Assembly (NCBI GenBank): GCA_030748575.1
Contig: JASMLR010000001.1
Span: 262,568 to 326,567 of the forward strand
Source of the DNA: Phycisphaerales bacterium
Lineage (GTDB): Bacteria > Planctomycetota > Phycisphaerae > Phycisphaerales > SM1A02
Length of the DNA: 64,000 bases
Reading direction: 5' to 3'
A program made the translations under genes and the position numbers. Shown piece by piece: positions 13,956-33,408 of this stretch. Position 1 is the first letter of the stretch. Every line of letters starts with the position of its first letter. The notes under the pieces were generated by a model, which was not told the origin of the DNA, ran no database searches, and saw only the letters and a program-made list of their open reading frames with translations.

Positions 13956-15392
13956 CTAGCGTGGCATGCGGGGGGCGGTCTGGGCGGGTGTGGCCGGCCA
14001 GGCAGGGGCTGCAACCGGATACACCGGCCGCGGGTCGGAGAGCATGGACTCGATCCACTCGAGGGTCAACGTGGCCCTGCGGCTCTCGATGCCGTCCATC
14101 GCCGGCCGCCAGCCGGCGACCGGTGGGTGGGGCAGGGTCGCGGCTTCTCGAGGCAATGCGTACTGAATGAGAAGCGACTGCTCGGGCGACGCCCAGTTGA
14201 TCATGGGCCTGCCCTGGTCTGAGAAGGCCTCCAGCAGCAGCAGGTTGCTCGCGCGAATCCGGTCATTGATGCGGCCCCGCCGAACCAGCGAGAATCTGCC
14301 ACCATCGGTCCCGCCGTGGCAGGACCGCATGCCACACCGTGGCAGGAGCCACGCGTCATGCACGCTCTGTCGGAACCGCCGAAGGGCTTCGGGTTCATCG
14401 AGCACCTGCACGCGGCCGTAGAACTCGCGGGCGCGGTGCGCAAACATGAGCTTCAGCAACTCGAGCGGATCGCCGTCTCGCAGCGCCTCCCGTTCGGGTC
14501 CGGGCGGGGGCAGGAGCGAACTGGTTGCGTAGGCATCGAGAAACGCCGCTCGCGTTTCCCGGTCGATGCGAAGTGGGGGAGGGTCGTTGAAGTCCATCTC
14601 ATAGACCCGAATCAGATTGACAGCTGCCTGGTCGACGGGCTCGAGCCGGTCGATCGCCGGAGTTGGTGTGTCCGGAGATGGTGACGAGGACGCGGTGTCG
14701 GCGAGCTTCCGCTGCGCGCGGGCCAGATTCAACAGCCTCGCCGCTTCAACGGACCGATGAGCCGCGGTGTGGGCCTCCAGTTCGGTGACGGCAAGGTCCC
14801 ATGCACGCTCCGAAATGAGCCACCTGCACATGGAGAGGTGCGGGCCGGGCCGGTCCACCGTCATCATCGGTTTCATGGCGGCGTGCCGCACATGGACCGG
14901 TTCGAGCAGCCACACGGCGGCGACGTTGTCGCGTTCGATGACGAGCGGCACGTCGTGCAGCAGCAGATCGACCGCGTCACACGCATCGCGTCTGAGCAGG
15001 CCGCGGAATCGTCGGCCGTCGGTCAACTGGACGATGCCTTCCGCTGGCGTGGGCAGGTTCAGCAGCGGCTCGACCGCCACGATGCGAAGCCGCTCGATGT
15101 GCTGGCGTGTTCCGTCATCGGTTCGGACCGTGACGCCTTCCGGGGTGTCTTCTTCGAGTGTGCCGCACAGGCGGTGGCGTCCGTCGTAGTGGACGATGAC
15201 CTGCGTCGCCGTGGCGGCGGCTTGCTCCGAGGCTTGCTCCGAGGCTTGCTCCGAGGCTTGCTCCGAGGCTTGCTCCGAGGCTTGCTCCGAGGCTTGCTCC
15301 GAGGCCGGTTCGCCGGCTGGCTGAGGAGTCGCCGCAGGTGCGGCCGGGGCGATCAGGCTCGCAAGGACCATGCCCGTGGCCGCGAAGATCAC
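13956..15392 (-). CDS. Exported protein with (SEQA)7 repeat and heme-like CxxxxCH motif
   Basis: A 478-residue protein without a recognised family. A signal-peptide-like N-terminus (1-21) is followed by seven perfect SEQA repeats (31-58). A region with small beta-strand modules (VIVHYDGRHRLCGTLEED, VQLTDGRRFRGLL) comes next, then a helical part. Near the C-terminus is C353-GMRS-C358-H359-G, resembling the CxxCH heme-attachment signature but with four residues between the cysteines. Planctomycetes have many divergent cytochrome-like exported proteins, so heme binding is possible but unproven. The GTG start overlaps the glutamate dehydrogenase stop by four bases (GTGA), showing translational coupling; an ATG seven codons later is an alternative. 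Confidence 0.65.
   Translation of the reverse strand: MIFAATGMVLASLIAPAAPAATPQPAGEPASEQASEQASEQASEQASEQASEQASEQAAATATQVIVHYDGRHRLCGTLEEDTPEGVTVRTDDGTRQHIERLRIVAVEPLLNLPTPAEGIVQLTDGRRFRGLLRRDACDAVDLLLHDVPLVIERDNVAAVWLLEPVHVRHAAMKPMMTVDRPGPHLSMCRWLISERAWDLAVTELEAHTAAHRSVEAARLLNLARAQRKLADTASSSPSPDTPTPAIDRLEPVDQAAVNLIRVYEMDFNDPPPLRIDRETRAAFLDAYATSSLLPPPGPEREALRDGDPLELLKLMFAHRAREFYGRVQVLDEPEALRRFRQSVHDAWLLPRCGMRSCHGGTDGGRFSLVRRGRINDRIRASNLLLLEAFSDQGRPMINWASPEQSLLIQYALPREAATLPHPPVAGWRPAMDGIESRRATLTLEWIESMLSDPRPVYPVAAPAWPATPAQTAPRMPR
15220..15303. repeat. Seven perfect 12-bp tandem repeats
   Basis: GCTTGCTCCGAG is repeated seven times without a single mismatch (84 bp). On the minus strand it encodes SEQA repeats just after the signal peptide. 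The unit is a multiple of three, so copy-number change keeps the frame. Confidence 0.97.
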
Positions 15393-19366: not shown

Positions 19367-20377
19367 ATGACCTATGCATCGACTGCCACCCTGGAGGACC
19401 TCGCCGCGCGCATCGGCGCCGCCGAGACCATCGTCTGCACTTCACACGAGAAGCCGGACGGGGACGCGATGGGGTCCGTCATGGGCCTCGTCCGCGCCTT
19501 GTCGAGTTCGAAACGCATGCATGCGTGGCTGCTCGGCTCCGTTCCACCACCCATCGCGGGGCTGGCCCGCGACACCGAATGGGTGCAGATTGCGGGCCCC
19601 GAAGACATCCCTTCGGTCGAACCTGATCTGATCATCCTGCTTGACACCGGCGCCTGGAGCCAGATCAAACCGCTTGCGGGCTGGTTGGCCGACCGGGCAG
19701 ATCGAGTCATCGGAATTGACCATCACGCCAGTGGCGATGATCCCGCGCCCGTCCGGTACGTCGATGCGACAGCGGCCTCCTGCACCATGCTCGTGCAGTC
19801 CCTGCTTGGCGTTCTGGGCATCGAACTCGACGTGGCCGTGGCGGAGCCACTCTTTGCCGGGCTCGCAACGGACACCGGATGGTTCCGGCAGGCTAACGCC
19901 GACGCGGCCGCGTTCGAGGCCGCGTCCCATCTGCTCGCGACGGGAGTCGACAAGGACCGGTTGTTCCGAGAGATTGAAGAGACCGCCCGCCCCGCGCGGC
20001 TTTCGCTCGTCGCGCGAGCGCTCGCAAGCGTGCAGTGGAGTCGAGGCGGCGCGGTCGCCACGATGCGACTCACCAGAGCGGACTTTGACCAGACCGATGG
20101 TCGGAGGAGTGACGTGACCGGATTGGTGAACGCGCCGTTGGTCGTCTCCGGTGCGGAGCTTTCGGTACTCCTGATCGAGGAGCGTGATGGCGGCGTGAAG
20201 GCCAGCCTCCGATCCAAACCGCCCGCGACCCCGGGGGGACCGTTCGTGGATGCACGCGCGATCGCGCAGCACCTCGGGGGTGGGGGGCACGTGCACGCAG
20301 CCGGTGTCTCGCTCGAAGGGCCGATCGACTGCGGGGCTGACGCCATCGCTGAGGCGATTGCGGCGGTCAGCGTGTGA
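19367..20377 (+). CDS. nrnA: NrnA-like DHH/DHHA1 phosphoesterase
   Basis: A 336-residue cytosolic hydrolase of the DHH superfamily. It most likely degrades nano-RNAs to mononucleotides and may dephosphorylate 3'-phosphoadenosine 5'-phosphate, as Bacillus NrnA does. Metal-binding motifs are seen in order: DGDAMGS (31-37), LLDTG (Asp93), DHH (118-120) and ATDTGWFRQ (about 164-172). The C-terminal DHHA1 motif GGGGHVHAAG lies near 304-313. Length and order match NrnA. The downstream membrane-protein gene starts within its stop codon (GTGA), so the two are coupled. Confidence 0.9.
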   Translation: MTYASTATLEDLAARIGAAETIVCTSHEKPDGDAMGSVMGLVRALSSSKRMHAWLLGSVPPPIAGLARDTEWVQIAGPEDIPSVEPDLIILLDTGAWSQIKPLAGWLADRADRVIGIDHHASGDDPAPVRYVDATAASCTMLVQSLLGVLGIELDVAVAEPLFAGLATDTGWFRQANADAAAFEAASHLLATGVDKDRLFREIEETARPARLSLVARALASVQWSRGGAVATMRLTRADFDQTDGRRSDVTGLVNAPLVVSGAELSVLLIEERDGGVKASLRSKPPATPGGPFVDARAIAQHLGGGGHVHAAGVSLEGPIDCGADAIAEAIAAVSV

Positions 20378-20910
20378 GTCCCCGTCGGCTCGCTTGGGTG
20401 GCCGTGGCGTGCGGCTTTGCTGCCATGGCGCTGCCGCTGATCGGCGCCGTGGCGTCGGTGTCGATGTTCGACCTGAAGACGATGGCCGTCGAGCAGGAGG
20501 CGTCGTTTGTGGTCGATCGCCCGGGCCCCTGGGTGCTGGCAAGTGAGACCCGCAGCGTCCTGGATGGGGCGGCCCACCTGAGCGAGGCGGTTGCCCTTGC
20601 CGATGTGACGCTGGTGGACCCCGAGGGCGCAGACGTGGAGGTTGGCGTTCCGCCGCGGGGGGTTCGGTACGAGACGCCCGACCGATCCGGCGTGATCATC
20701 GGGTCGTTCGAGGCCTCCACGCCGGGCGCGTGGACGCTCGTCCGTCGCGAGCCTGCGGTGCCGGCCGTCTTGATGGCCGTTGGCCCCGACCCCGCCTCCG
20801 CGGCCGTGTGGTGGCTTCTGATCCCCGGCGGTCTGGCCGTCGTGCTGCTGGGCGCTGCGGGCGGGTGTGGATGGGTCGCATTTCGTGCGGCGCGGCGAGC
20901 TGCCGGCTGA
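20374..20910 (+). CDS. Two-helix membrane protein of unknown function
   Basis: An unrecognised 178-residue protein. One hydrophobic segment lies near the N-terminus (7-30) and one near the C-terminus (142-170), flanking a roughly 110-residue soluble beta-rich region (DVTLVDPEGADVEVG, GSFEASTPGAWTLV). This suggests a domain outside the cytoplasm held by two helices. GTG 20374 overlaps the nrnA stop by four bases. It may be the tail of the nrnA transcript. Confidence 0.6.
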   Translation: MSPRRLAWVAVACGFAAMALPLIGAVASVSMFDLKTMAVEQEASFVVDRPGPWVLASETRSVLDGAAHLSEAVALADVTLVDPEGADVEVGVPPRGVRYETPDRSGVIIGSFEASTPGAWTLVRREPAVPAVLMAVGPDPASAAVWWLLIPGGLAVVLLGAAGGCGWVAFRAARRAAG

Positions 20911-20938
20911 CCGCCGTGGCCGCCGCGCCGGTCGGCCG

Positions 20939-20944
20939 TACACT
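20939..20944 (+). promoter_or_regulatory. Leaderless-type -10 box (TACACT)
   Basis: TACACT, six bases (TCATGC), then ATG 20951. This would start the long operon that runs to 32775. Confidence 0.45.
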
Positions 20945-20950
20945 TCATGC

Positions 20951-22570
20951 ATGGCCGATTCTGGCACGGCATCTCTGGATCCAGCCATTCGCCGGCTCGC
21001 GTCGCGGGCAGCGAGGCGGTTGACGCTCAATGCTGCCCTGCGGCATGCCGCTCGCGCCGGTGTGGTGGTCTCGGCTGTGGCCGTGCTGCTTGCGTGCGTG
21101 GAGCGGTTCGGTGGGTTCGACGGTTGGCCCTGGGGATGGATCGCGGGTGCCATGGCGGTCATCGTGTGCGGGGCCGGGGTCGTGGGGGGCCGCGGCAATC
21201 GCGCATCACTCGCCGACGGCGCGGTGGTGCTGGATGAACGGCAATCACTTCATGACGCGTTATCCACGGCCCTCATGTACGAAGGGGCGGCGGGTCCCAT
21301 CGCCGAGGCGCAGCGAGCCGCTGCCGGCCGCGCTGCTCGGCGCAGCGGCCGAGTCGCCGGTGTGGTTCCGCTGCGGGTGCCGCAAGCCTGGTGGGCCGTT
21401 GCCGTGTTGACGACCACTGCGGTCGGCGTGGCCACGACGCCCTCGCTCTTCGGTCAGCAGTCGGCGCCTGCAACATTGGATCTGGCGGAGGCAACCATCG
21501 AAACAGAAGCAGCCCTCGCCGACATGCAGGCAGCGCTCGACGCGGCGCCTGAACTGCGTGACCGACTCGGCGCTGGCCAGTTGGACGCCGGGGAGCATCG
21601 GCCGGCGGACGCGGCGCAGCTGCGACAGGATGCGCTTCAGTCGCTGACGGACCTGCAGAAGGCGCTCGACGACTTTGCACTTGATCCTGCGCAGCAGCGG
21701 CTCGCAGGGCTTCGAGGCCGACTGGAAGATCTGGAGCAGGCGACCGGCGATTCCGGGGGAGAGGCCCGCACCGCGCTGGCGGACGGAGACTTCCAGCGGG
21801 CGGCCGAGGCCATGGACGCCATGCGGGCCGCGGGAGGTGAGTCGCAGGCCCGAGCCTTCGATCAGCTTGCCCGCGATCTCGACGCGGCCTCCGAGGGAGA
21901 TGACGACATTCGAAAGATGCTGCAGGACGCGGGCGTCGCTGCAGAGGAGGGGCAGACCCTGGCCGGGGCATTGCAGGACGCAGAGCATCTCGATGATGAC
22001 TCGCGGCGGTCGCTTGAAGACCTCATCGAGGCTGACCGGGCGGCCCGCCGGTCGCTTCAGAAGATGGGTCAGGACTGCCGAGAGGCGGCGTCGGCATGCC
22101 GCGGCGGCGATGGCGACTCCGACGGGTCGCTCGGGCAGTCGGCATGCAGGCAGATTGCGGAGGACCAGAAGGCGCAGGAGCAGGCCGGCGCGTGCAAGTC
22201 CGCATGCGCTCGCAGCCGCGCAGCGGTCGGGCAGGGGCTGGGCGGCGGACGCGCCCCCGCGGCAGCGGATGCGCCGACCGACGTGGCGACGGCCGTGAAG
22301 GCCGCTACCGAGGTTGATGCGACGGCGCCCATCGTGACCGCGTCGCCCGTGGCTGGCCCGCTGCATCGAGGCGACACGTCCGAGGCGGGCAGCCGGGCGA
22401 TGGCTGCCGCCCAGCGGCGTGTGCAGCGGGGGATTGACGTGCAGCGGATTCCCAAGCGGTATCGCGAGGCGGTCGCCGCCTGGTTCAAACTGGTGCAGAC
22501 CGAGCCGGAAGACGCAGACGGTCCCGACGACGCGGCCGAGCCCACCGAGGCGGAGCCCGATCCGTCGTGA
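20951..22570 (+). CDS. Membrane-anchored coiled-coil protein of the MoxR/Bat operon
   Basis: A 539-residue protein with two N-terminal hydrophobic segments (about 36-52 and 60-78), a third near 145-165, and a long Ala/Asp/Gln-rich helical region expected to form coiled coil. Near the C-terminus IPKRYREAVAAWF resembles the closing motif of DUF4175-type proteins that accompany MoxR and DUF58 in planctomycetes and relatives; this assignment is by pattern only. The precise function is unknown. ATG 20951 has a TACACT box six bases upstream. Its stop overlaps the next ATG (TGATG), so it leads a coupled operon. Confidence 0.65.
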   Translation: MADSGTASLDPAIRRLASRAARRLTLNAALRHAARAGVVVSAVAVLLACVERFGGFDGWPWGWIAGAMAVIVCGAGVVGGRGNRASLADGAVVLDERQSLHDALSTALMYEGAAGPIAEAQRAAAGRAARRSGRVAGVVPLRVPQAWWAVAVLTTTAVGVATTPSLFGQQSAPATLDLAEATIETEAALADMQAALDAAPELRDRLGAGQLDAGEHRPADAAQLRQDALQSLTDLQKALDDFALDPAQQRLAGLRGRLEDLEQATGDSGGEARTALADGDFQRAAEAMDAMRAAGGESQARAFDQLARDLDAASEGDDDIRKMLQDAGVAAEEGQTLAGALQDAEHLDDDSRRSLEDLIEADRAARRSLQKMGQDCREAASACRGGDGDSDGSLGQSACRQIAEDQKAQEQAGACKSACARSRAAVGQGLGGGRAPAAADAPTDVATAVKAATEVDATAPIVTASPVAGPLHRGDTSEAGSRAMAAAQRRVQRGIDVQRIPKRYREAVAAWFKLVQTEPEDADGPDDAAEPTEAEPDPS

Positions 22571-23607
22571 TGCGCCGCCTGATCAGTGCGGCGGTCTGGG
22601 CGGTGGTCGGGGCCTGCGCCGTGGCGTGCATGGGGTGCGATCGATCCGAGCCCACCGTCGTGGTCTACGTGTCGGCGGACGACTATGTGGCCAAGCCGAT
22701 TCTGGAGGCGTTTGAGGATCGCTCGGGCATTCGTGTCCTCATGGTGGGTGATACGGAAGCGAGGAAGTCGACCGGCCTGATTGAGCGGCTTCGCCGCGAA
22801 GGCGCGGCGCCTGTGGCGGACGTGCTGTGGTCCTCCGAACTGCTTGGGGTGGTCTCGCTGTCCCGCGACGGCCTTCTGGCTCCGCATGTGTCAGCGGACT
22901 GCCAGGACTGGCCGCCGCTCTGGCGTGACCCGGAGTATCGCTGGTACGCCTTTTCGCCCCGCCCACGGGTGCTGGTCTATGACCCTGAGCGACTGCATCC
23001 ATCCGAGTGTCCGGCGGAGTGGGCGGACCTCGCCGACCCGCGATGGCGCGGCGAGATCGTTGCGGCCGACCCCCGCTATGGAACGACCGGCACGCATCTG
23101 GCCGCACTTCGGTGGGTGCTCGGTGACGCCTGGCCGGCGTGGCTGGACGCCCTGGCCCGGAACGAGGTGCGTGTCCTGCCTGGCGGCAACGCCGCGTGCG
23201 TCGATGCGGTGTATCGCGGCGAGGCGCTGCTCGGCATGACCGACGCCGACGATGTGCGAGCGGCCAACCGAAACGGCGCCGCGCTGGCCATGACGCTGCC
23301 CGGCCATGGCTCGGGCCGTGGACCCATGCTCACGCCCAACACGGTTGCCATCCTTCAGGGGGCACCCCACCCGGCCGAGGCGGCGGCGCTGGTGGACTGG
23401 CTCCTCTCACCGGACGTGGCCCGGCGGTTGGCAGCGTCAGTGTCCGGCAACGTGCCGCTCCACGCGTCGGTCGCGATGGAGTTTCCGGATCTCGCGGTCG
23501 GCTCGCCACTGCCTCTGGACGCGGCTCAGATCCACGCTCACCATGGGCCTGCAGTCGCCCAAGCGGTCGACGCGTGGGGAGGCGGGGCAAACGCCGGTGG
23601 TCCGTAG
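22570..23607 (+). CDS. Iron-type ABC transporter substrate-binding lipoprotein
   Basis: A 345-residue extracellular solute-binding protein resembling the Fe(3+)/AfuA-FbpA class. A signal peptide with two possible lipidation cysteines (Cys20 or Cys23 in ACAVACMGC) is followed by the mature start VVVYVSADDYVAKPILEAFE. Then comes the usual VADVLWSSE strand and SPRPRVLVYDPERLHPSECP. The ligand could be ferric iron or another small anion complex. ATG 22570 overlaps the upstream stop. The following permease starts inside the end of this gene. No ATPase gene lies nearby. Confidence 0.8.
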   Translation: MRRLISAAVWAVVGACAVACMGCDRSEPTVVVYVSADDYVAKPILEAFEDRSGIRVLMVGDTEARKSTGLIERLRREGAAPVADVLWSSELLGVVSLSRDGLLAPHVSADCQDWPPLWRDPEYRWYAFSPRPRVLVYDPERLHPSECPAEWADLADPRWRGEIVAADPRYGTTGTHLAALRWVLGDAWPAWLDALARNEVRVLPGGNAACVDAVYRGEALLGMTDADDVRAANRNGAALAMTLPGHGSGRGPMLTPNTVAILQGAPHPAEAAALVDWLLSPDVARRLAASVSGNVPLHASVAMEFPDLAVGSPLPLDAAQIHAHHGPAVAQAVDAWGGGANAGGP

Positions 23608-26011
23608 GGGACTTCTGATCTCGCTGTGGTGCCTGGTCATCGGGTGGCCGGTGCTGGCACTCGCCGTCATGGGCGTCGAGTCGTCGGAGGCCCGCGCGGA
23701 CGCGGGGCTGCGGGCCACCGGGCCCCCGGTCTGGCCCCCGGTCTGGACGACGGTCCGCTGGTCGATCGGCATGGCCCTGCTGGCCGTGGTGGCCGCCATC
23801 CCGGCCGCTCGGCTGCTTGCCGGCGTCGGACGCAGGCTGCGTGGCGTGCTGCTCGGGATTGCATGCAGCGGCCTGCTCCTTCCGCCCTGGGCGCTCTACT
23901 ACCTCTGGTGGTCGAGCATGCCCCCGGGGTCCGTGCTGCATGATCTGGCGGCGGGATCGAATCGCCTGGCCGTGCTTCGGGGCGGCCTGGCGGCGGCCGC
24001 TGTGCTGGCGAGCGTCTGGCCCATCGCCGTGTGCTGCATCACGCCCGCGTCGATGCGATGGTCCGGCCAGCATGAAGACGAGTTGCGACTGGATGGCGTC
24101 GGCCGCGTCGGGCGGTCCCTGAGACGCCTCCGGTGCGAGGCGCCGGGCCTGGCGGCGGCCGCCATCGTCGTCGCGGTGCTGACCGCCGGGTGCACGACCG
24201 TCTTTGACCTTGCCGGTGTGGCCACACTTGCCAACGAACTACGGGCTCGGTCCGATCTCGGCGGGTCCGGGCTCGCCGTGCTGGGTGTGGCGTGGCCGCT
24301 GGTGCCGGCGGCCCTTCTCGGCGCCGCAGCCGCGTGGTGGTGGGCGGCCAGGCCGCCGATGCAGGCGGAGCGGCGCCGAGGCGTCTCCGCAGGTCCGGCG
24401 GTGGTGTCGGCCGCGATCTGGCTCGTCGTTGTCGGACTCCCGCTTGCGCTGCTGGTGTCACTGAGTTGGCGTGTGGAGCCTGCGGCAGGCGGATCAGCCT
24501 GGCATCTGGTCGAGGGCGTCGCTCGGACCGTCGGTCGGGGACTGATCGTGGGCGCGATGGCCGCCGTGCTTGCCGTGGCGACGCGGGATCTCTGGTCCCG
24601 CTGGGTGTGGTCCCTGCTCGCGTGCAGTTGGGTGGCGGCGGCGCTGCTGCCCTCGCCGCTGGTGGGGGCAGTCGTGGCGGAGGCGTGGCCGGGAGCGGTT
24701 GCGGCAACCGGCGGCACCTGGGTATTGGCGTTGTTGGTCCGCGGCGGCGCTATCGGCCTTTTGGCGTCACGGTGGCTGGCCCGAACGGAACCGACCACTC
24801 GCCGCGACCTGCGCCGGCTCGATGGGTGGGTTGACCTTGTGAGCGATCCCGTCACCCGGACTGCGGGCGCCGCGGCGCTGCTGATTGCTCTGGCCATCAG
24901 CGCAGGCGACATCGTGCTGGCAGGACGGCTCGCGCCGCCCATGGCGTCACCTCCCATTGCGGTGACGCTGCTCAACGCGATTCACTATCAGCGGCCCGAG
25001 ACGGTCGTGGCCGTGCTTCTGCTGCTCCCGGCGCCGATGCTCCTGCTGCTGCCGGTGCTCATGCGGCACACGGCCCGCCGCGCTGCGCCGCTGGTGCTGT
25101 GCGGGGCGGTGATTGGTCTGTTCGGATGCGGTTCGGTGGAGGATGAACCGATCGCGGCCCTGCCGATTGAAGGGTGGAGTGGGCTTCCCGGCCGCACGCC
25201 GGGCCGGTTTGATGTTCCTCGGGGCATCACGATCGACGCCAACGGGGATGTGTACATCGTCGACAAATCCGCGCGAGTGCAGCGACTGGACGGCGAGGGC
25301 GCGGCCCTGTGCTGGTGGACCATGCCCGCAAGCGACAACGGCAAGCCGGCTGGCTTGACCGCGCTGGATGGCGGGGTGATCGCTGTCGCCGACACGCATG
25401 AGTATCGCGTGGCCATCTTTGACCGGTGCGGCGCGTTGAAGCGCACGTTCGGGGGCTACGGCATGGAGCCGGGCGCGATGGTCTACCCGACCGATGTTGC
25501 CGTGTCGCCGGAGGGGGAGTGGTTTGTGGCGGAGTACGGGGGGAACGACCGGGTGCAGGTATTCGATGAACGTGGCCGGGTGCAGCGGGTGCTCGGAGGC
25601 CCGGGCCGCGGGCCTGGCGCGTTCCGAAGGCCCCAGTCGCTGGCCATCGACGGCGACGTGATGTGGGTTGCGGACTCCGGAAATCACCGGGTGCAGGGAC
25701 TTGACCTGCAGACCGGGCTGATGGTGGCCGAGATCGGCGTCGGGGTCCTTCGCTCCCCGTGGGCGGTGGCGGTGGGTCCTGACGGATCGCTGCTCGTGGT
25801 CGACCAGGGCACCCATACGCTCACCAGGTGGGCGAAGGATGGTGAACACCTCGGCACGTGGGGCGGGTGGGGCCGCGCGCCTGGGCGACTGCGCATGCCG
25901 TGGGGGGTGGCGATTGACCCCTCCGGGTCGACGGTCCATGTGCTCGATACCGGCAATGCGCGTGTACAACGCGTGCCGTGGCGGGCGCTCCTGATGGGCC
26001 CGCAGCAGTAG
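23597..26011 (+). CDS. ABC permease fused to an NHL-repeat propeller
   Basis: One uninterrupted 804-residue frame holds two proteins. Residues 1-488 form a two-domain binding-protein-dependent permease (FbpB/ThiP type) with about 12 membrane helices. An EAA-like cytoplasmic loop (DELRLDGVGRVGRSL) is visible in the first half. Residues 489-804 look like a complete lipoprotein: signal peptide, lipobox LFGC (Cys511), then a six-bladed NHL propeller with repeats such as FDVPRGITIDANGDVYIVD and GAFRRPQSLAIDGDVMWVADSG. In a split version the second part would start at ATG 25061, but neither a Shine-Dalgarno nor a TAnnnT box precedes it. GTG 23597 overlaps the upstream stop by 11 bases; ATG 23543 is the alternative. 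Confidence 0.75.
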   Translation: MVRRGLLISLWCLVIGWPVLALAVMGVESSEARADAGLRATGPPVWPPVWTTVRWSIGMALLAVVAAIPAARLLAGVGRRLRGVLLGIACSGLLLPPWALYYLWWSSMPPGSVLHDLAAGSNRLAVLRGGLAAAAVLASVWPIAVCCITPASMRWSGQHEDELRLDGVGRVGRSLRRLRCEAPGLAAAAIVVAVLTAGCTTVFDLAGVATLANELRARSDLGGSGLAVLGVAWPLVPAALLGAAAAWWWAARPPMQAERRRGVSAGPAVVSAAIWLVVVGLPLALLVSLSWRVEPAAGGSAWHLVEGVARTVGRGLIVGAMAAVLAVATRDLWSRWVWSLLACSWVAAALLPSPLVGAVVAEAWPGAVAATGGTWVLALLVRGGAIGLLASRWLARTEPTTRRDLRRLDGWVDLVSDPVTRTAGAAALLIALAISAGDIVLAGRLAPPMASPPIAVTLLNAIHYQRPETVVAVLLLLPAPMLLLLPVLMRHTARRAAPLVLCGAVIGLFGCGSVEDEPIAALPIEGWSGLPGRTPGRFDVPRGITIDANGDVYIVDKSARVQRLDGEGAALCWWTMPASDNGKPAGLTALDGGVIAVADTHEYRVAIFDRCGALKRTFGGYGMEPGAMVYPTDVAVSPEGEWFVAEYGGNDRVQVFDERGRVQRVLGGPGRGPGAFRRPQSLAIDGDVMWVADSGNHRVQGLDLQTGLMVAEIGVGVLRSPWAVAVGPDGSLLVVDQGTHTLTRWAKDGEHLGTWGGWGRAPGRLRMPWGVAIDPSGSTVHVLDTGNARVQRVPWRALLMGPQQ
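25061..26011 (+). other. NHL-repeat lipoprotein module within the fused frame
   Basis: From ATG 25061 the frame reads as a stand-alone 316-residue lipoprotein: basic n-region MRHTARR, hydrophobic core, lipobox ending at Cys23, then NHL repeats. Fused to the permease, the signal peptide would act as an extra membrane helix, placing the propeller outside the cytoplasm. Whether it is also made separately by internal initiation or freed by signal peptidase II is unknown. Confidence 0.5.
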
Positions 26012-26014
26012 CAT
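26009..26014 (+). promoter_or_regulatory. Leaderless-type -10 box (TAGCAT) of the VWA gene
   Basis: TAGCAT, eight bases (TGGACGCG), then ATG 26023. It overlaps the stop of the upstream frame, so a second promoter could serve the VWA-MoxR-DUF58-BatA part. Confidence 0.35.
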
Positions 26015-26022
26015 TGGACGCG

Positions 26023-28890
26023 ATGCACTTTGAACATCCAGGCTGGCTGGTGCTGCTGCTTGTTCTGGTGCCAGTTCTGTGGCGATCACGCGGGGCGCGG
26101 ACCACGCTCGGGTCGGTTCGAGGCGTTGTGGTGCCGGCGCTGCGATGCCTGCTGGTTGCGGCCGTGGTTCTGGCGCTTGCTGATCCGGTTCTTGATCTCC
26201 GAACCGATCGCCTGACGGTCGCCGTCGTGCTTGACCGCAGCAGGTCCTTGTCCGAGGAGGAAGTGGACCGGGCCGTTCAGTGGTTGCAGCATGCAACGCA
26301 GCACCGAAGCGAATCGGATCTGCTCGCCGTCGTGCATGCCGCCGAAGATGCGTCCGCGGTCCTGATGCCCGACCCGCATGGTCAGGTCGGGGTCGAGCCG
26401 CTGCAGGGGGGAGACGCGGGAACGGATCTGGCCGCTGCCATCGAGTTCACCAAGGGACTGCTCCCGAAAGACGGGAGGCACCGCATCCTGTTGGTCAGTG
26501 ATGGCAATGAAACCCGCGGGTCCGTGTCCGAGGCGGCGGATCGAGCCGGCGAAGCGGGGATTCCGATCGATGTGCTTCCCCTTGAGTATCACCGCAGCAG
26601 CGAAGTCATGGTGGAGCGTCTGGTGGCGCCGGCCGAGATTCGCTCCAACGAGCCCGCCGACCTGCAAGTCGTCCTCCGCGCCGAGTCGGCAACGTTCGGA
26701 ACACTGCACCTGCTCTCGGAAGGCCTTCCGATCTCCGAGAAGATCCCGCTGCAGTTGGAGGCCGGCACGACCATCGTGCCCATGCGTGTGCCGCCCGCAG
26801 CGCGGGCCATGCAGCGGTATGAAGCCGTGTTTGAGCCAGTCGCCGGGGCGGCCGATCGGGTGGCTGCCAACAACTCCGCAGCGGCCATCACGCTGCAGGT
26901 GGGCCGGGGGCGGGTGCTGGTCGTGTCGGATGGGGGCGGCGGCGATCACCTGATCAGCCTGTTGGGCGACCGCGGCCTCTCCGTCCACGCAGCCGGCGTG
27001 GAAGCGTTGCTTGGGGGTCCACCTGCGCTTGCCGCCTGGGACGCCATCGTGCTCGCGGGCGTCCCGCGGTGGAGCCTGCCGGACAGGCTGGACGGGGAAC
27101 TGACTGAGTGGGTCCGGTCCGGCGGCGGGGGACTGCTGATGACGGGCGGGCCGACCGGCCTTGGGGCGGGCGGGTGGATTGGCTCGAGCGTTGCGGATCT
27201 GCTTCCGGTCGGGCTCGACCCGCCCGCCGATCGCCAAGTACGGCGGGGCGCGCTGGCGATCATTCTCCACTCCTGCGAGATGCCCAAAGGCAACGTGTGG
27301 GGGCGGCGCGTCGCGGAGGCGGCCATCGAAGCGCTCTCGAGCCAGGACGCGGTCGGGCTGCTGGAGTACGAAAATCGCAAGGGCCGTGTGAACTGGGCGT
27401 TGCCCATGCAGCGGGCAGGTGACAAGAAGGCGGCGCTGCACGCCGCAGCGTCCCTCCTGTACGGCGACATGCCTGACTTCGCGGAAGCCATGGAAGCGGC
27501 GCTTGCAGGCGTGACGGGCGTCGTGGCCGGTCAGCGGCACGTCATCATCATCTCGGACGGTGACCCGCAGCCTCCGAGCCCCGCCCTGCTGGACGCGTAC
27601 AAGGCTGCTCGCGTCAGCGTCACCACCGTCATGGTCGGGGGGCACGGCACCCCGGTTGACCGGAGGCGCATGGCCGCGGTGGCGTCGATGACCGGGGGTC
27701 GTTTCTACGATGTGGTTGACGCCTCCCAACTTCCGCAGATCTTCATTCAGGAAGCGCAGGTCGTGTCCCGTTCGCTCCTGCAGAAGGGGACGTTTGCCGT
27801 CGACTGGAACGGACCGGGTGGCGGGCCCGTGACGGGCGGTGACATGGCCGCGATCGGGCCCATTCCCTCGGTGAACGGGTACGTGCTGACCGAGGCGCTC
27901 GGGGGCTTGTCTCAGGACGCGATGGTGGTGGCCGGTTCAAAGGGCAGCGACCCGCTGCTCGCCTGGCGGAACGCCGGGCTTGGTCGAGTGGCGGTCTTCA
28001 CAAGCGACGTGGGCGGCCCCTGGACAAGCGGATGGGCCGGATGGGCTGGCGGCGGCGCATTGTGGGAGCGAACGGTGGGCTGGCTGCTCCGTCCGGGCGA
28101 CGAGGGGCTTCTGGCGATGCACCTTCGAGAAGGCGACGACGGGGAAGTGCTCGTTGATCTCGAAACGGTGGAAGCGGACTTTGCCAACTTCCTGCAGATG
28201 GAGGCGGTGGTCCTCGGCCCGGGCGGTGGCGGCGGCGCGATGTCGCTGCAGCAGGTCGGCCCCGGACGGTATCGCGGTGTGTTCGACATGGATCGGTCCG
28301 GAGGATGGGTCGTCGGTGTGAAGTACCGGGGCATTGACCCCCGCACCCATGCGCCGGTTGATGGGTGGGTGCAGGGCGCGGTTGTCCGGAACTGGCCGAG
28401 TGAAGATGGCACGGTTCGAAGCAACGCGTCGCTGCTCGCGGATGTGGCCTCACGAAGTGGTGGCCGTGTCCTGTCGATCGACAGTGATCCGGCCGAAGTG
28501 CGTGTGTTTGAGCGAGCGGGTCTGGTCGCGTCCGCCGGGCAGCGGCGGATCTGGGTGGCGCTGGCCATTGCAGCGGCCCTGCTGCTGCTGTTAGACGTGG
28601 CGGTCCGTCGCATTGTGCCGGACGGGCAACGACGAGCGGTTCTGGCTCGCCGCGCCGCGGAGGCGTCGGCCGGTGCGGCGCAGGCAGCGGACGCGGCCTG
28701 GAAAAAGGCGAGGGCGCGTCGCAAGATGGGTGGCCAGGCATCAACACCGAACGTCTCGCCCTCTCCGGAGCCGCCAGCCGAGCCGCCAGCCGAGCCGCCT
28801 CCCGCCGCGGAGGACGACGCCGAACCACAAGACACCATGGCCAGACTTCGCGCCACGCGGCGGCGGTTGCGTGACGAGGACGACGCATGA
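26023..28890 (+). CDS. Membrane protein with VWA and glutamine-amidotransferase-like domains
   Basis: A 955-residue BatA-like protein. Two N-terminal helices (about 7-20 and 36-54) precede a von Willebrand factor A domain whose MIDAS motif is DRSRS (71-75). A GATase1-like segment follows (VLVVSDGGGGDHLISLLGDRG, then GGGLLMTGG near 367-375), and a second VWA-like region comes later (RHVIIISDGDPQPPSP). A third helix (about 848-866) and a charged, Pro/Glu-rich cytoplasmic tail end the protein. This architecture is common in planctomycete MoxR operons; the function is not established. Start 26023 follows a TAGCAT box. The stop overlaps the MoxR start (ATGA). Confidence 0.8.
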   Translation: MHFEHPGWLVLLLVLVPVLWRSRGARTTLGSVRGVVVPALRCLLVAAVVLALADPVLDLRTDRLTVAVVLDRSRSLSEEEVDRAVQWLQHATQHRSESDLLAVVHAAEDASAVLMPDPHGQVGVEPLQGGDAGTDLAAAIEFTKGLLPKDGRHRILLVSDGNETRGSVSEAADRAGEAGIPIDVLPLEYHRSSEVMVERLVAPAEIRSNEPADLQVVLRAESATFGTLHLLSEGLPISEKIPLQLEAGTTIVPMRVPPAARAMQRYEAVFEPVAGAADRVAANNSAAAITLQVGRGRVLVVSDGGGGDHLISLLGDRGLSVHAAGVEALLGGPPALAAWDAIVLAGVPRWSLPDRLDGELTEWVRSGGGGLLMTGGPTGLGAGGWIGSSVADLLPVGLDPPADRQVRRGALAIILHSCEMPKGNVWGRRVAEAAIEALSSQDAVGLLEYENRKGRVNWALPMQRAGDKKAALHAAASLLYGDMPDFAEAMEAALAGVTGVVAGQRHVIIISDGDPQPPSPALLDAYKAARVSVTTVMVGGHGTPVDRRRMAAVASMTGGRFYDVVDASQLPQIFIQEAQVVSRSLLQKGTFAVDWNGPGGGPVTGGDMAAIGPIPSVNGYVLTEALGGLSQDAMVVAGSKGSDPLLAWRNAGLGRVAVFTSDVGGPWTSGWAGWAGGGALWERTVGWLLRPGDEGLLAMHLREGDDGEVLVDLETVEADFANFLQMEAVVLGPGGGGGAMSLQQVGPGRYRGVFDMDRSGGWVVGVKYRGIDPRTHAPVDGWVQGAVVRNWPSEDGTVRSNASLLADVASRSGGRVLSIDSDPAEVRVFERAGLVASAGQRRIWVALAIAAALLLLLDVAVRRIVPDGQRRAVLARRAAEASAGAAQAADAAWKKARARRKMGGQASTPNVSPSPEPPAEPPAEPPPAAEDDAEPQDTMARLRATRRRLRDEDDA

Positions 28891-29924
28891 GTCGTCCACT
28901 CGCACCACCGCCCAACCCCGATCCGCAGGATGCTTCGGAAGTGGCCGCGTCGGTGGCCGCCGTCACCAGCGGTCTGGACGCGATGCGAAGCGAAATTGCC
29001 CGCGTGATCTCGGGCCAGGAGGCGGTGGTCGGCGCGGTCCTTGCGTGCCTGCTGGCCGACGGCCATGCGCTGCTGGAGGGTGTGCCGGGGACCGGGAAGA
29101 CCCTTCTGGTTCGAACGGTTGCGGCGGCCGCCGGGCTGGATGTCGGTCGCGTGCAGTTCACGCCCGACCTGCTTCCTGCCGACATCACAGGAACCACCAT
29201 CGTTGCCGAGGGGGCGAGCGGGTTGCGGGGCACCGTGTTTCGACCGGGACCCATCTTCCACGCCGTGGTCCTTGCCGATGAGATCAATCGCGGCTCGCCA
29301 CGAACCCAGTCCGCGCTGCTCGAGGCCATGCAGGAGCGGGGCGTGACGATCGCCGGCACCCGCCACCCGCTGCCGGCGCCGTTCATCGTGCTGGCGACGC
29401 AGAATCCCATTGAGCAGGAGGGCACGCACCGGCTTCCGGAAGCGCAGGTGGATCGCTTCCTCATGCAGATCAACGTCACGCCGCCGGAGGCGGATGTGTT
29501 GGCCCGCATCATCGAGGGAACGACGGGGCCTGACGTCGATGAGATTGAGCCCTGCCTTACGCCGGACTTCCTCTGCGCAGCCACCCAACTCAGCCGCCGG
29601 ATTCTGGTGGCGCCGCACGTGGACGGCTGGATCGCTTCGCTGGTGCTTGCGACGGGTGCCGCCGGCTCGCAGGTTGCCGATCGCTTGACGGCGCCTTGCA
29701 GTCCGAGAGCGGCCATTTCCATGCGCCGCGCCGCCCAGGTGGCGGCCATGGCTTCGGGACGGTTGGCCGTGTCGTGCGCCGATGTGCGTTCGGTGGCGGC
29801 CGCGTGCCTGCGTCATCGAATGGTGCCCGACCCGGTGGCTCGAGGCGAGGGCCTGACCGCCGACGATCTGGTGGCCATGTTGCTCGACGAGGTGCCGACA
29901 CCGGCCGGGGAGGTCCTGGCATGA
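28887..29924 (+). CDS. MoxR-family AAA+ ATPase
   Basis: A 345-residue AAA+ chaperone-like ATPase of the MoxR class, thought to assemble or activate partner proteins with VWA domains. Walker A is GVPGTGKT (65-72), Walker B VVLADEIN with Asp131-Glu132, followed by the family block RGSPRTQSALLEAMQE. The sensor-1 segment is FIVLATQNPIEQEGTH. ATG 28887 overlaps the VWA stop by four bases and its stop overlaps the DUF58 start in the same way, so stoichiometric translation with its likely VWA partners is expected. Confidence 0.92.
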   Translation: MSRPLAPPPNPDPQDASEVAASVAAVTSGLDAMRSEIARVISGQEAVVGAVLACLLADGHALLEGVPGTGKTLLVRTVAAAAGLDVGRVQFTPDLLPADITGTTIVAEGASGLRGTVFRPGPIFHAVVLADEINRGSPRTQSALLEAMQERGVTIAGTRHPLPAPFIVLATQNPIEQEGTHRLPEAQVDRFLMQINVTPPEADVLARIIEGTTGPDVDEIEPCLTPDFLCAATQLSRRILVAPHVDGWIASLVLATGAAGSQVADRLTAPCSPRAAISMRRAAQVAAMASGRLAVSCADVRSVAAACLRHRMVPDPVARGEGLTADDLVAMLLDEVPTPAGEVLA

Positions 29925-30862
29925 TTCCCGGTTTCGGCATCGACTCGTCGCCTCCGCCCGCAACGGTTGAGGACCTGCTCGGTCCCTCCCTGCTGGCCGC
30001 CATGGATGGGCTGGAGATCACGTCGCGAAAGGTCCTGTCGGGTCGCTTGCACGGTGAGCGGCGGAGCAGGCGGCGGGGGTTCAGTATCGACTTTGCCGAT
30101 CACCGCCCGTACGTCGCGGGTGATGATCTGCGGTACGTCGACTGGAATGTGTACGCCCGGCTCGATGCGCTCTTCCTGAAGTTGTATCTGGACGAAGAGG
30201 ATCTCAGCGTTCTGATCGTCCTGGACGCGACGCCATCCATGGATTGGGGCGCTCCGTCCAAGTGGACGTTTGCCAGGCGACTGGCGATGGCACTTGGGAG
30301 CATTGGACTGGCCGCCAAACACCGGGTGAGCCTTGCATGCTGCAGTGGCAGCGACGTGTCGCATCTCCGCGATCTGCGAGGCCGAGGCCGAACTGCCGAA
30401 CTCGGCCAATGGCTTCTCCAACGTTCCATCCGCGACCACGGCGGAGGCGAACCACTTGGTGAAGCGCTGCGAGCCGTCGCGCCGACACGACGGGGCCGCG
30501 GCGTGGCGATCATTCTGAGCGACTTTCTGGGCGCTGACGATCCACTGCCTGCGCTGCGGACGCTGGCAGGTGGAGGCGACGATCTTCACTGCCTTCAGGT
30601 TCTGAGCCCCCAGGAGACCGATCCGGGTGGTCATGGTCTGGCCGGAGACATGCGGCTTGAAGACCAGGAGGGTGGCCCCCCGCGGGAGGTGACGGTGACG
30701 CCTTCGCTGCTGCGGGCCTATCGAGCTCGGCTTGACGAGCGGGTGCGTCTGGTTCGCGATGCAGCGCGGCGGTGTGGTGGAAGCCACCTCGCGGTTGAGA
30801 CGGACGCCGACGTGGCCGACCTGCTCCTGGGTCAACTGCGAAGGGGTGGGCTGATCAGATGA
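29921..30862 (+). CDS. DUF58 protein of the MoxR operon
   Basis: A 313-residue cytoplasmic DUF58 protein, the usual partner of MoxR. The diagnostic motif runs through FSIDFADHRPYVAGDDLRY to DWNVYARLD (54-82). A degenerate VWA-like fold follows with VLDATPSMDWG (about 102-112), where the metal site is D-x-T-x-S. GGAGG lies upstream of ATG 29921, and the start also overlaps the MoxR stop (ATGA). Unlike many DUF58 proteins it lacks N-terminal helices. Confidence 0.9.
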   Translation: MIPGFGIDSSPPPATVEDLLGPSLLAAMDGLEITSRKVLSGRLHGERRSRRRGFSIDFADHRPYVAGDDLRYVDWNVYARLDALFLKLYLDEEDLSVLIVLDATPSMDWGAPSKWTFARRLAMALGSIGLAAKHRVSLACCSGSDVSHLRDLRGRGRTAELGQWLLQRSIRDHGGGEPLGEALRAVAPTRRGRGVAIILSDFLGADDPLPALRTLAGGGDDLHCLQVLSPQETDPGGHGLAGDMRLEDQEGGPPREVTVTPSLLRAYRARLDERVRLVRDAARRCGGSHLAVETDADVADLLLGQLRRGGLIR

Positions 30863-32775
30863 GTTGGCTTGCACCATGGACTGCATTCTGGGTGCTGCTC
30901 GCCGTCATTCCCGCGCTCCTGGCGCTGTACATCCTTCGCTTGCGGCGTGCCCGGCAACTGGTGCCGACGACGACCCTCTGGACGGCCGCAGCGGAGGACA
31001 TACAGGCCAACACGCCGTTTCAGCGGCTGCGGCGGAACCTCCTTCTGCTGCTTCAACTCGTGGCCCTGGCGATGCTCGCGCTGGCGGTGGCCCAGCCCCG
31101 GCTGGAGATGGCAGCGGGCCGCGGCGCGCGGACGGTTCTGTTGATTGACTGCTCCGCTTCGATGCAGGCCGTCGAGGGCGGTCAAACGCGTTTCGAGCAG
31201 GCGATCGAGGCCGCCATGCAGGCCGTGGACCGCCTGCACCCCGGTATCTGGTTTGGGGATGCGGGCGGGCAGACCATGGTCGTTGCGATGGGGGACGAGG
31301 CGGAGATCATGCAGCCCTTTACCGGCTCGCGTGGGGCGCTGCGAGCGGCGCTGGAACGCATGGAGCCGGCCGACACCACGGCCCGTCTGGACCGCGCGCT
31401 TGCCATGGCCCGAGCATGGTCGGCCGAGCCGGATCCCGATGCGCCTCGTGTAACCGATGGCCCGGCTCGCCTCGAAGTGTTCACCGACGGCGGCCTGCCT
31501 GATCTCGACCAGGCCACCCTGCTGGGTGCCGAGACGCTTGTGCATCTGGTTGGAGATTCAACCGCCGGCAACCGCTCGGTACAGATGGTGGCGGCCCAAC
31601 GCGACTCGGATGATCCACATCAGGTGCAGGTCTTCGCCACCCTCTGGAACTGGGAGCGATCGCCGCGTGACGAGCGTGTGCAGATGTCCATCGAAAACGC
31701 CGCCGTGCACGTGGAAGACATGACGCTTCCGGCCGCAACGCTCGACGATGCAGGCGAGGTGCGGCCTGGCGTGCAGGACCTGGTGTTCACGAAGGCCCGG
31801 CATTCCGGCGAGGCCCTGATTGAGGTCAGGCTGGTGGGGGAGGATGCGCTGCCGCTTGACGATGCAGCGTGGGCCGTCGTTCCGGAAGTGGCGCCGCTGC
31901 GGGTCCATCTCGTTTCCGAAGACCCCGACTTCTGGTCCCGCGCGTTGTCGGTCGTTCCGGCCGTTGACGTGACGACCTCCACAGCCGCGGCGGATGTCGA
32001 CCTCACCGTGTACGACGGTGTTTCGCCGGAAACGTTGCCGGACGGCCCCACGCTGTCGATCAATGCGCCGTTCCCTTCGGCGCTGCTCGAGTTTGGGTCG
32101 GTCAGGCCTGCGGAGTCGGTTGCCCTCGGAGACCCGAAGCACCCTGTGTTCCGGGGCGGCGCGCCCGGCGACCTGTGGGTACGCGCGCCCCAGCAGGTCG
32201 AGTTGGATACGCAGGTTCGTCCCGTGCTGCGGGGCGCGGATGGCCCGCTTGTGCTGGCCTGGGAGGAAGGTGGGCACCGGCGAGTACACATCGCATTCGA
32301 TCCGACCGAGAGCACGTGGCCACTGCATCCGACCTTCGTGAGTTTCCTCGTTGACGCGTTGGAGTGGATGGCGTGGCGTGGCGCGGATTACCGAGGAGCC
32401 GCCATGGCTGGCGATCGCGCGTCGGTTCGCCTGCCCGAGGGCGTTCAAACGGCCATCGCGACCGGGCCCGGTGGGGTGCGTCGTCCCCTGGCGGTACACA
32501 GCGGGCGTCGCGCCGGGTGGGGCCCCGTCGATCGGGCGGGGCCGTGGGTGGTGCGGTGGGACGAGCCGACCGCGGGGCACCGCTTTGTTGCGGTTCGCGT
32601 CCCGGTTCAGTTGGAAGGTGATCTGCGGGTGCCGGAAGCCATGCACATCGGCGGCGTTGAGGCGACTGCGGCCGGCAACGCGGCCGCCTCGACACCCCTG
32701 TGGCCGTGGGCCCTGTGCGGTTCGCTTCTGGTGCTCTTGATCGAGTGGGCCGTGTACACGTCGAGGATCCGCTGA
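30859..32775 (+). CDS. BatA-type VWA membrane protein
   Basis: A 638-residue protein with an N-terminal aerotolerance (BatA) region containing two helices (about 9-28 and 60-79), then a VWA domain with MIDAS DCSAS (97-101). A beta-rich region of about 350 residues follows, and a last helix near 612-634. The bulk between helices is probably outside the cytoplasm. It closes the coupled series VWA-MoxR-DUF58-BatA (ATGA overlap with DUF58). Homologous operons are linked to stress tolerance and envelope integrity, but the role here is unknown. Confidence 0.87.
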   Translation: MSWLAPWTAFWVLLAVIPALLALYILRLRRARQLVPTTTLWTAAAEDIQANTPFQRLRRNLLLLLQLVALAMLALAVAQPRLEMAAGRGARTVLLIDCSASMQAVEGGQTRFEQAIEAAMQAVDRLHPGIWFGDAGGQTMVVAMGDEAEIMQPFTGSRGALRAALERMEPADTTARLDRALAMARAWSAEPDPDAPRVTDGPARLEVFTDGGLPDLDQATLLGAETLVHLVGDSTAGNRSVQMVAAQRDSDDPHQVQVFATLWNWERSPRDERVQMSIENAAVHVEDMTLPAATLDDAGEVRPGVQDLVFTKARHSGEALIEVRLVGEDALPLDDAAWAVVPEVAPLRVHLVSEDPDFWSRALSVVPAVDVTTSTAAADVDLTVYDGVSPETLPDGPTLSINAPFPSALLEFGSVRPAESVALGDPKHPVFRGGAPGDLWVRAPQQVELDTQVRPVLRGADGPLVLAWEEGGHRRVHIAFDPTESTWPLHPTFVSFLVDALEWMAWRGADYRGAAMAGDRASVRLPEGVQTAIATGPGGVRRPLAVHSGRRAGWGPVDRAGPWVVRWDEPTAGHRFVAVRVPVQLEGDLRVPEAMHIGGVEATAAGNAAASTPLWPWALCGSLLVLLIEWAVYTSRIR

Positions 32776-32802
32776 CGCGGCGTGCTACGCGCCGTCAGCG
32801 GA
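32768..32802. terminator. Bidirectional hairpin between convergent genes
   Basis: A perfect 10-bp outer stem (TCCGCTGACG, 32768-32777, with 32793-32802), a two-base bulge and a 5-bp inner stem close on a 3-base loop. It spans the last codons of both the BatA gene and the TPR-YggX gene, so it can act in either direction. There is no T-run. Confidence 0.5.
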
Positions 32803-33408
32803 CGCAACGTCTTCCGGGACGCCGAGGTACTCGTGCATGTGCTGGTCGTACATCGCGGTGTCCTGCGGCTGTGACAGATCCAACCTGAGTTCGTTGATGA
32901 CCTTGGTTCCCTGATGAATCCACGCGTCCCATGTTTCAGCGCTGATGTGCTGGCTGATCCAATCGCCGACAGGGCCGCGGAAGGGGGGCTCACTGAGCTG
33001 CGTGCCGCCGCGACCGGTTCGCTGGCAGACGAAGTCGCCCTCACCGTCGGAGGTTGGCGGGGCATCCGCGGACACCTCCGGGACCGCTCGGCCGATGTCG
33101 GTGAGCATGCCGGCGATCGCATCCTGAGGCATACGGTCGCCCCGTCCTGCCGCCACCTGGAACCCGCGTGTGAGCACCTCCGCAGCCCGGTCTTCCCACC
33201 CAGCGGCAAGCATGGCCTGGCCACAGAGTTCATACGCCTTGCTCATCTCCGGGGACAATTCAATACATCGCTCCAGCGAGGCTGCTGCGTCTGCTGGCCT
33301 GCCGGCCTGGAGATAGGCTGATCCGAGGCTGAAGTGCGCCATCTCGTTTTCGGGATCGGCCGAAGCCATGTTTTCAAACTGTGCGATGCGGTCTGCAGCG
33401 GTGTCCAT
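32785..33408 (-). CDS. TPR domain fused to an Fe(2+)-trafficking (YggX) domain
   Basis: A 207-residue fusion. Residues 1-95 contain two TPR units (EMAHFSLGSAYLQAGRPADA and KAYELCGQAMLAAGWEDRA). Residues 125-197 match the YggX/Iron_traffic family: FVCQRTGRGGTQLSEPPFRG with Cys128 at the position of the conserved YggX cysteine, then ISAETWDAWIHQGTKVINE and a C-terminal helix. Free-standing YggX is about 90 residues and protects Fe-S clusters from oxidation; here the TPR part may bring it to a partner protein. The start at 33408 has a TACCCT box seven bases upstream. It is divergent from pyrD across 50 bases. Confidence 0.85.
   Translation of the reverse strand: MDTAADRIAQFENMASADPENEMAHFSLGSAYLQAGRPADAAASLERCIELSPEMSKAYELCGQAMLAAGWEDRAAEVLTRGFQVAAGRGDRMPQDAIAGMLTDIGRAVPEVSADAPPTSDGEGDFVCQRTGRGGTQLSEPPFRGPVGDWISQHISAETWDAWIHQGTKVINELRLDLSQPQDTAMYDQHMHEYLGVPEDVASADGA

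Follow-up and report, generated by a model that had tools for sequence, protein, structure and literature searches.

Is a membrane permease that runs without interruption into a lipoprotein one protein, or two proteins made as one chain? The question is raised by a gene at positions 23597-26011 (+ strand) of a 64,000-nucleotide stretch of contig JASMLR010000001.1 from a Phycisphaerales bacterium of the Planctomycetota (the whole stretch is called the window below). The open reading frame encodes 804 residues, begins with GTG, ends with TAG and contains no internal stop codon; an FbpB-like permease, a lipobox and an NHL propeller are fused in it. A preliminary description of the sequence had placed a permease, a basic n-region, an LFGC lipobox and NHL repeats in this one frame, with a stop-free junction. 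Both points hold: the open frame, the Pfam NHL match and a structural model agree with the first, and the continuous frame, whose join is also open in relatives, agrees with the second. We propose that the gene encodes a natural polyprotein, i.e. a permease and an NHL lipoprotein that would be split at the internal lipobox. Judging from sequence comparisons, we give this reading a probability of roughly 0.6.

The lipoprotein signal at the join

Residues 489-511 (MRHTARRAAPLVLCGAVIGLFGC) form, by pattern, a lipoprotein signal peptide in an internal position. The methionine at 25061 opens a basic stretch, MRHTARR (25061..25081, +, read from the frame), which would be the n-region of a former or present signal peptide. 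It is followed by 15 hydrophobic residues (25082..25126, +, from the frame and the model) that may form an h-region or a 13th membrane segment, and the LFGC lipobox ends in Cys511 (25127..25129, +). In the window the signal lies behind 488 residues, whereas it is N-terminal in separate orthologues. Lsp and Lgt genes are present in the genome. The AlphaFold model of the whole 804-residue protein, with a mean predicted local distance difference test score (pLDDT) of 81.9, has 12 helices in the membrane, followed by a short one (residues 497-508) and a propeller (about 526-794).

It is conspicuous that the lipobox cysteine is invariant, both in the 15-row alignment A1 and in all 139 distinct permease-NHL frames, the window's included, while the sequence around it and the length of the linker differ greatly between frames. 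By rules set for this analysis, G, A, S or N at position -1 together with uncharged positions -9 to -1 was found in 138 of the 139 frames (the exception, L042, has Asp at -3), and G, A, S or N at -1 together with a hydrophobic run also in 138 (the exception, L024, has a weak hydrophobic run); L042 and L024 each fail a stricter rule and nevertheless retain the cysteine. The residue at -1 is Gly in 98 permease fusions, Ala in 25, Ser in 14 and Asn in one. Ahead of the hydrophobic stretch, all 138 fused rows scored carry a net charge of +1 or more. The stretch itself has a median length of 16 residues in these 138 rows (range 12-30) and of 17 in 33 separate NHL lipoproteins; the closeness of the two medians argues that it has not been lengthened into a full membrane anchor. 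In other words, by its pattern the signal peptide of the lipoprotein survives at the join, with a basic stretch, about 16 hydrophobic residues and G, A or S before the cysteine.

Conservation of the fusion and the separate forms

A search for the same junction in related genomes, which the preliminary description had suggested, led to the reading of the 139 distinct fused frames in Planctomycetota. An initial search matched the protein at an expectation value (E) of 0.001 in 57 of 61 genomes, and a family profile matched 285 of 400 genomes of the order at E 1e-30, NHL-only matches being counted in both cases. The 210 loci read, duplicates included, comprise 163 fused, 38 separate, five NHL-only and one permease-only loci, and three comparison loci, i.e. 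other ATP-binding cassette (ABC) loci of the same genome. The 163 fused loci correspond to the 139 distinct frames, the window's own counted. The numbers of 139 fused and 34 separate distinct frames give no frequency, since the searches put full-length fused matches first in lists of limited length; G024, G175, G159, G355, G320, G306 and many genomes with split or NHL-only matches are not among the loci read.

Within the genus the join is open in seven of the eight other genomes. One of the seven (G005, locus L008) has a frame break elsewhere, within the permease, and the eighth genome (G003, 87% complete) gave weak matches only, the best at E 2e-7. The fused frames include those of same-genus genomes at 44-55% identity and of the single-contig genomes G017 and G302.

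Relatives with a stop codon at the junction, named beforehand as the finding that would speak against the fusion, do occur, in a genome of the same family (G011) and in many genomes of family f2, where permease and NHL protein are two adjacent genes; the fusion in the window stands all the same. In G011 the permease end and the NHL start overlap as ATGA, and a lipoprotein signal belongs to the NHL gene itself; the separate NHL lipoprotein of L050 has a 4-base ATGA overlap, and in G031 about 4.5 kb lie between the two genes. The lipobox was found by rule in 33 of the 34 distinct separate NHL genes; the one that fails (L195, LESC, with Glu at -2) still has the cysteine. The separate NHL gene is thus a stand-alone lipoprotein, which accounts for the parts of the join and leaves the fusion here intact.

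A FastTree phylogeny with 139 fused and 33 separate rows (172 in all) requires at the fewest three changes between the fused and separate states; the NHL part alone also requires three and the permease part alone four. L050, whose NHL part is cut by a contig end, is absent from the tree, and L008 was left out of the separate class. The fused rows fall in families f1, f3, f4 and part of f2, and 31 of the separate rows form a single f2 clade, the other two being L096 (f2) and L048 (f1). The tree is unrooted and does not give the order of the two states within the order. We note as an aside that three loci titled Kuenenia or Planctomycetaceae (L038, L040, L041) carry a fused protein that groups with the window's family; these are perhaps mislabelled bins.

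Fusion of the lipoprotein to an ATPase

In 24 of 42 further loci, an ABC ATPase and the NHL lipoprotein share one frame (L226, L227, L229-L249, L255). These loci belong to other families of Planctomycetota and to family f6 of the same order. They were mostly picked for a long NHL frame, so that the number 24 is no frequency; the cysteine was no criterion. The lipobox is present in 24/24, with Gly at -1 in every case, the hydrophobic stretch has a median of 15 residues, and the Walker A and signature motifs of the ATPase are present. A domain scan of five of the 24 found ABC_tran and NHL in all five and TOBE_2 in two. A relative of the window's binding protein lies upstream in 18 of the 24 and a weak permease match in six, several of the stretches being short.

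Among the other loci, ATPase and NHL protein are separate neighbouring genes in four (L257, L258, L259, L268). In one locus from outside the order (L267, also L220), the last permease part is joined to the NHL protein; the permease there is split over two frames and includes unread bases. No ABC gene was found in the remaining 13 of the 42. Both states occur within f6: L106 (genome G182) has an ATPase gene ahead of a separate NHL gene, and seven other f6 genomes (L241-L247) have the fusion. An apparent triple fusion of permease, ATPase and NHL protein in L247 (an open frame of 1103 residues) was rejected, since hydrophobic segments are absent from its upstream part, where the open frame merely runs on.

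The operon of L258, with the order substrate-binding protein (SBP), permease, ATPase and NHL lipoprotein, looks like the ancestral layout; the ATPases of this transporter family carry an LSxGE signature. In both kinds of fusion, the partner of the NHL lipoprotein is the adjacent transporter gene, permease or ATPase, and the lipoprotein signal survives.

One chain or two products

If the chain is processed, the 12 permease helices would insert and the internal signal peptide would follow as a 13th segment, with the cysteine at the outer face. Lgt would add diacylglycerol to Cys511 and LspA would cut before it. The spent signal peptide would stay as the tail of the permease, and the propeller would end as a separate lipid-anchored protein beside the transporter, in a 1:1 amount, where it probably does its work outside the membrane, together with the binding protein that serves the Fbp-like importer. 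The fusion may have originated by loss of the stop codon between neighbouring operon genes, and it would be tolerated because LspA restores two products, which would explain why the partner differs (permease here, ATPase elsewhere). The cysteine is kept in 139/139 permease fusions and 24/24 ATPase fusions, next to short signal-like stretches, which speaks more for a signal that is lipidated and cut than for a fixed tether. Moreover, the same signal is retained behind two partners that are unrelated to each other, the second being a cytosolic ATPase, and this suggests a chain that is cut by LspA after Lgt has acted. We are inclined to think, at slightly better than even odds, that LspA serves as a polyprotein protease in Planctomycetota and that the NHL lipoprotein was fused more than once, each time behind whichever transporter subunit preceded it, the internal lipobox serving to part the two proteins again.

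Several points weigh against the polyprotein. Lgt and LspA would have to accept a signal peptide that is preceded by a polytopic protein. The join (residues 491-516) has pLDDT values below 50 in the AlphaFold model. The fused state is stable, as the three changes over 172 rows indicate, and a tether could be useful in itself. Potential start codons are also frequent in the range of 14-40 codons ahead of the cysteine: ATG is found there in 83 of 138 fused rows (60%) as compared to 36-54% of control stretches, and ATG, GTG or TTG in 131 of 138, so internal starts may be used in some species.

The first alternative, which we regard as unlikely, is an uncut tether, i.e. a propeller joined to the permease via a 13th helix, which would sense the binding protein or give it a place to dock. 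The continuous, conserved frame would suit it, a 13th segment would fit the AlphaFold model, and GlnPQ and OpuA are examples of transporters with covalently attached outer domains. It leaves unexplained the invariant lipobox cysteine, for which a permanent tether would have no need, as well as G, A or S at -1, the shortness of the hydrophobic stretch and the alternative fusion to a cytosolic ATPase. The preliminary description had the propeller hung on an importer; the in-frame, conserved fusion bears this out in part, and the permanent attachment is disfavoured by the conservation of the cysteine in both kinds of fusion.

A chain that is lipidated and left uncleaved is distinctly improbable. 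Here Lgt would acylate Cys511 and LspA would not cut, so that the chain would be anchored twice. This would account for the conservation of the cysteine without cleavage, but a lipid would add little to an anchor of 12-13 helices, and strict conservation of the cysteine would then be unexpected.

More improbable still is internal initiation, at ATG 25061 in the window and at GTG or TTG elsewhere, which would yield two proteins and make read-through of the permease into the propeller a by-product. ATG 25061 does precede a complete signal peptide, and the start-codon counts given above lean the same way. However, the segment 14-40 codons ahead of the cysteine holds no ATG in 55 of the 138 permease fusions and in 19 of the 24 fusions to an ATPase, the positions of the ATGs scatter, and three of these 24 have neither ATG, GTG nor TTG there. 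Shine-Dalgarno-like 4-mers stand ahead of seven of 115 ATGs before the cysteine and of 57 of 1053 control ATGs, i.e. at background level; among the fused frames, neither a conserved start codon nor a Shine-Dalgarno sequence at the join was found as a rule. A scan for sigma-70 promoters found none in 20200-33000.

A sequencing or assembly error, or a chance run-on of two frames, can be dismissed even though relatives with separate genes exist, since conserved fused frames, 139 of them distinct and all with the join cysteine, were found in independent genomes.

The permease and the propeller

The permease part (residues 1-490, 23597..25066, +) contains the 12 modelled membrane helices and reached a pLDDT of 83.6 when modelled alone. 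Foldseek matched this model to FbpB of the Thermus FbpBC transporter (PDB 9j4r_A) with E 3.9e-8 and a template modelling (TM) score of 0.73. The VIA alignment with the same chain gave Z 28.4 and a root-mean-square deviation (rmsd) of 4.0 over 455 residues at 16% identity; the runners-up, which are permeases from further type I importers, covered about half of the model with Z 14.7 or lower, and the VIA match lists leave other folds possible. A profile built from 21 permease parts also matches 9j4r_A (E 1e-8). LDG-like residues are found at both places where the coupling-loop (EAA-type) motif is expected, and D166, R173 and D409 are conserved.

Sequence families do not recognise this part. PF00528 (BPD_transp_1) matched neither the window protein nor any of the 21 permease parts at E 0.1, and the fused gene is not among the eight matches listed in a PF00528 search of its own genome. 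No permease family was matched when the 21 members were scanned against sequence libraries; LAB_N, DUF2871 and PRK12505, each found in one member only, were set aside as chance. The identity of the permease thus rests on fold and profile, and in the model it is a double permease fold of about 12 helices, of the FbpB type (type I).

The NHL propeller (residues 526-794, 25172..25978, +; Pfam NHL E 9e-30) is six-bladed, and its model aligns with the NHL domain of 6xg7 over 272 residues (VIA, Z 39.6, rmsd 2.0). A terminator scan placed a hairpin at 25188-25207 inside the NHL part; the three hairpins of the region are not above the number in shuffled sequences (mean 4.3).

Binding protein, missing ATPase and gene neighbourhood

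A substrate-binding lipoprotein of the same system lies just upstream (22567..23607, +; SBP_bac_6/11 type, Pfam SBP_bac_6 E 4e-17) and carries the motif TDADD. The motif TDxDD was found in 176 of the 177 loci whose SBP alignment spans the site (duplicates counted). It is common to the binding proteins of all fusion types, which points to one transporter family. FbpA has a tyrosine pair where the window's binding protein has TDxDD, and the near-invariant motif suggests an unusual ligand site. The other Fbp-type genes of the same genome (contigs C2 and C4) showed no TDxDD in frames of at least 220 residues. A metal ion would be our guess for the substrate, from the fold and the acidic motif.

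The term importer, used in the preliminary description, is supported by the FbpB-like fold and the binding protein just upstream, but a PF00005 search and phmmer found no ABC ATPase gene within 10 kb of the fused gene. The nearest one on the contig (36778-37869, about 11 kb behind the fused gene) has an ISGGM signature and lies outside the transporter system; from its signature motif we take it to be MlaF-like. When two ATPases of the family were searched with phmmer against 217 stretches, most of them short-flanked, the only matches were this gene, L042 (opposite strand, two ABC stretches) and L106 of f6, so that none except that of L042 stands beside a permease-NHL fusion. An Fbp/MalK-like ATPase with 41% identity to that of L258 is encoded on contig C55 of the window's own genome (G000). 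No permease is listed on C55, and contig C4 (L046) has an Fbp-type permease with no ATPase listed, hinting at ATPase sharing. The C55 ATPase is a candidate to power the window's transporter in trans.

Downstream of the fused gene follow a VWA and GATase1-like protein (26023..28890, +; library scan), a MoxR-type AAA+ ATPase (28887..29924, +; Pfam AAA_3 E 2e-56, bpMoxR E 1e-9), a DUF58 protein (29771..30862, +; library scan, start not settled) and a BatA/VWA membrane protein (30859..32775, +; library scan). A relative of the VWA and GATase1-like protein was found in 115 of 139 fused loci, many of the stretches ending soon after the fusion, and the order SBP, fusion, VWA, MoxR, DUF58, BatA recurs in the longest loci (L032, L033, L035-L039, L041, L042). 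Importer genes without an ATPase stand directly ahead of this VWA/MoxR/DUF58/BatA cluster (26023-32775). Elsewhere in the window, the frame 13956-15392 (-) has ASEQ tandem repeats in its N-terminal part, after a signal-like start.

Relation to known systems and implications

The closest structural relative is the ferric-ion importer FbpBC (9j4r), whose FbpB has the same double permease fold of 12 helices from end to end. The window's system differs in its 16% identity, in the lack of a PF00528 match in 21/21 members and of a nearby ATPase gene, and in having a C-terminal lipobox and propeller and TDxDD in the binding protein. ScyF and other NHL-repeat proteins share the propeller (NCBIfam ScyF match, E 2e-28), but the window protein scores 99.9 bits, far under the model cut-off of 350, and its propeller is fused.

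FbcH of Bradyrhizobium is a polyprotein of cytochromes b and c1 that is cut by signal peptidase I. As in the fused gene of the window, a polytopic protein is joined to one that is exported and attached to the membrane, and a signal peptide lies inside the chain. In contrast to FbcH, the signal is here of the lipoprotein type (Lgt/LspA), and it stands between a propeller and an ABC permease or ATPase. A polyprotein cut by LspA would be the lipoprotein-signal counterpart of FbcH, which is the nearest precedent known to us.

In GlnPQ and OpuA, too, a membrane subunit of an ABC transporter carries an extracytoplasmic domain on the same chain; those domains are binding domains, whereas the window has an NHL propeller behind a conserved lipobox and a separate binding protein. 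We know of no lipobox between the domains of GlnPQ or OpuA. In the MoxR-vWA-beta-propeller ternary systems (PMC7159879), MoxR, VWA and propeller proteins are clustered, and genes for all three are present here as well; the window's propeller, however, belongs to a transporter gene, and in other families the propeller is likewise joined to transporter genes, among them that of the ATPase. A literature search, which mostly left subscription papers outside, found among the papers listed no internal lipoprotein signal separating two proteins of one chain and nothing on point for an NHL/permease fusion in Planctomycetes; PMC5837995 deals with other proteins, and the papers listed for FbpBC with other subjects.

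If the internal lipobox is processed, a lipoprotein signal peptide can lie elsewhere than at the N-terminus, and Lgt and LspA would be able to work on a signal that follows a polytopic protein or a cytosolic ATPase. Such lipoproteins would then be missed by annotation and signal-peptide tools limited to N-termini. Since the same lipoprotein has been fused to two different partners, the case also offers a natural test of the tolerance of operons for gene fusion. Moreover, the fusion marks an NHL lipoprotein as an accessory of an uncharacterised importer of the Planctomycetota.

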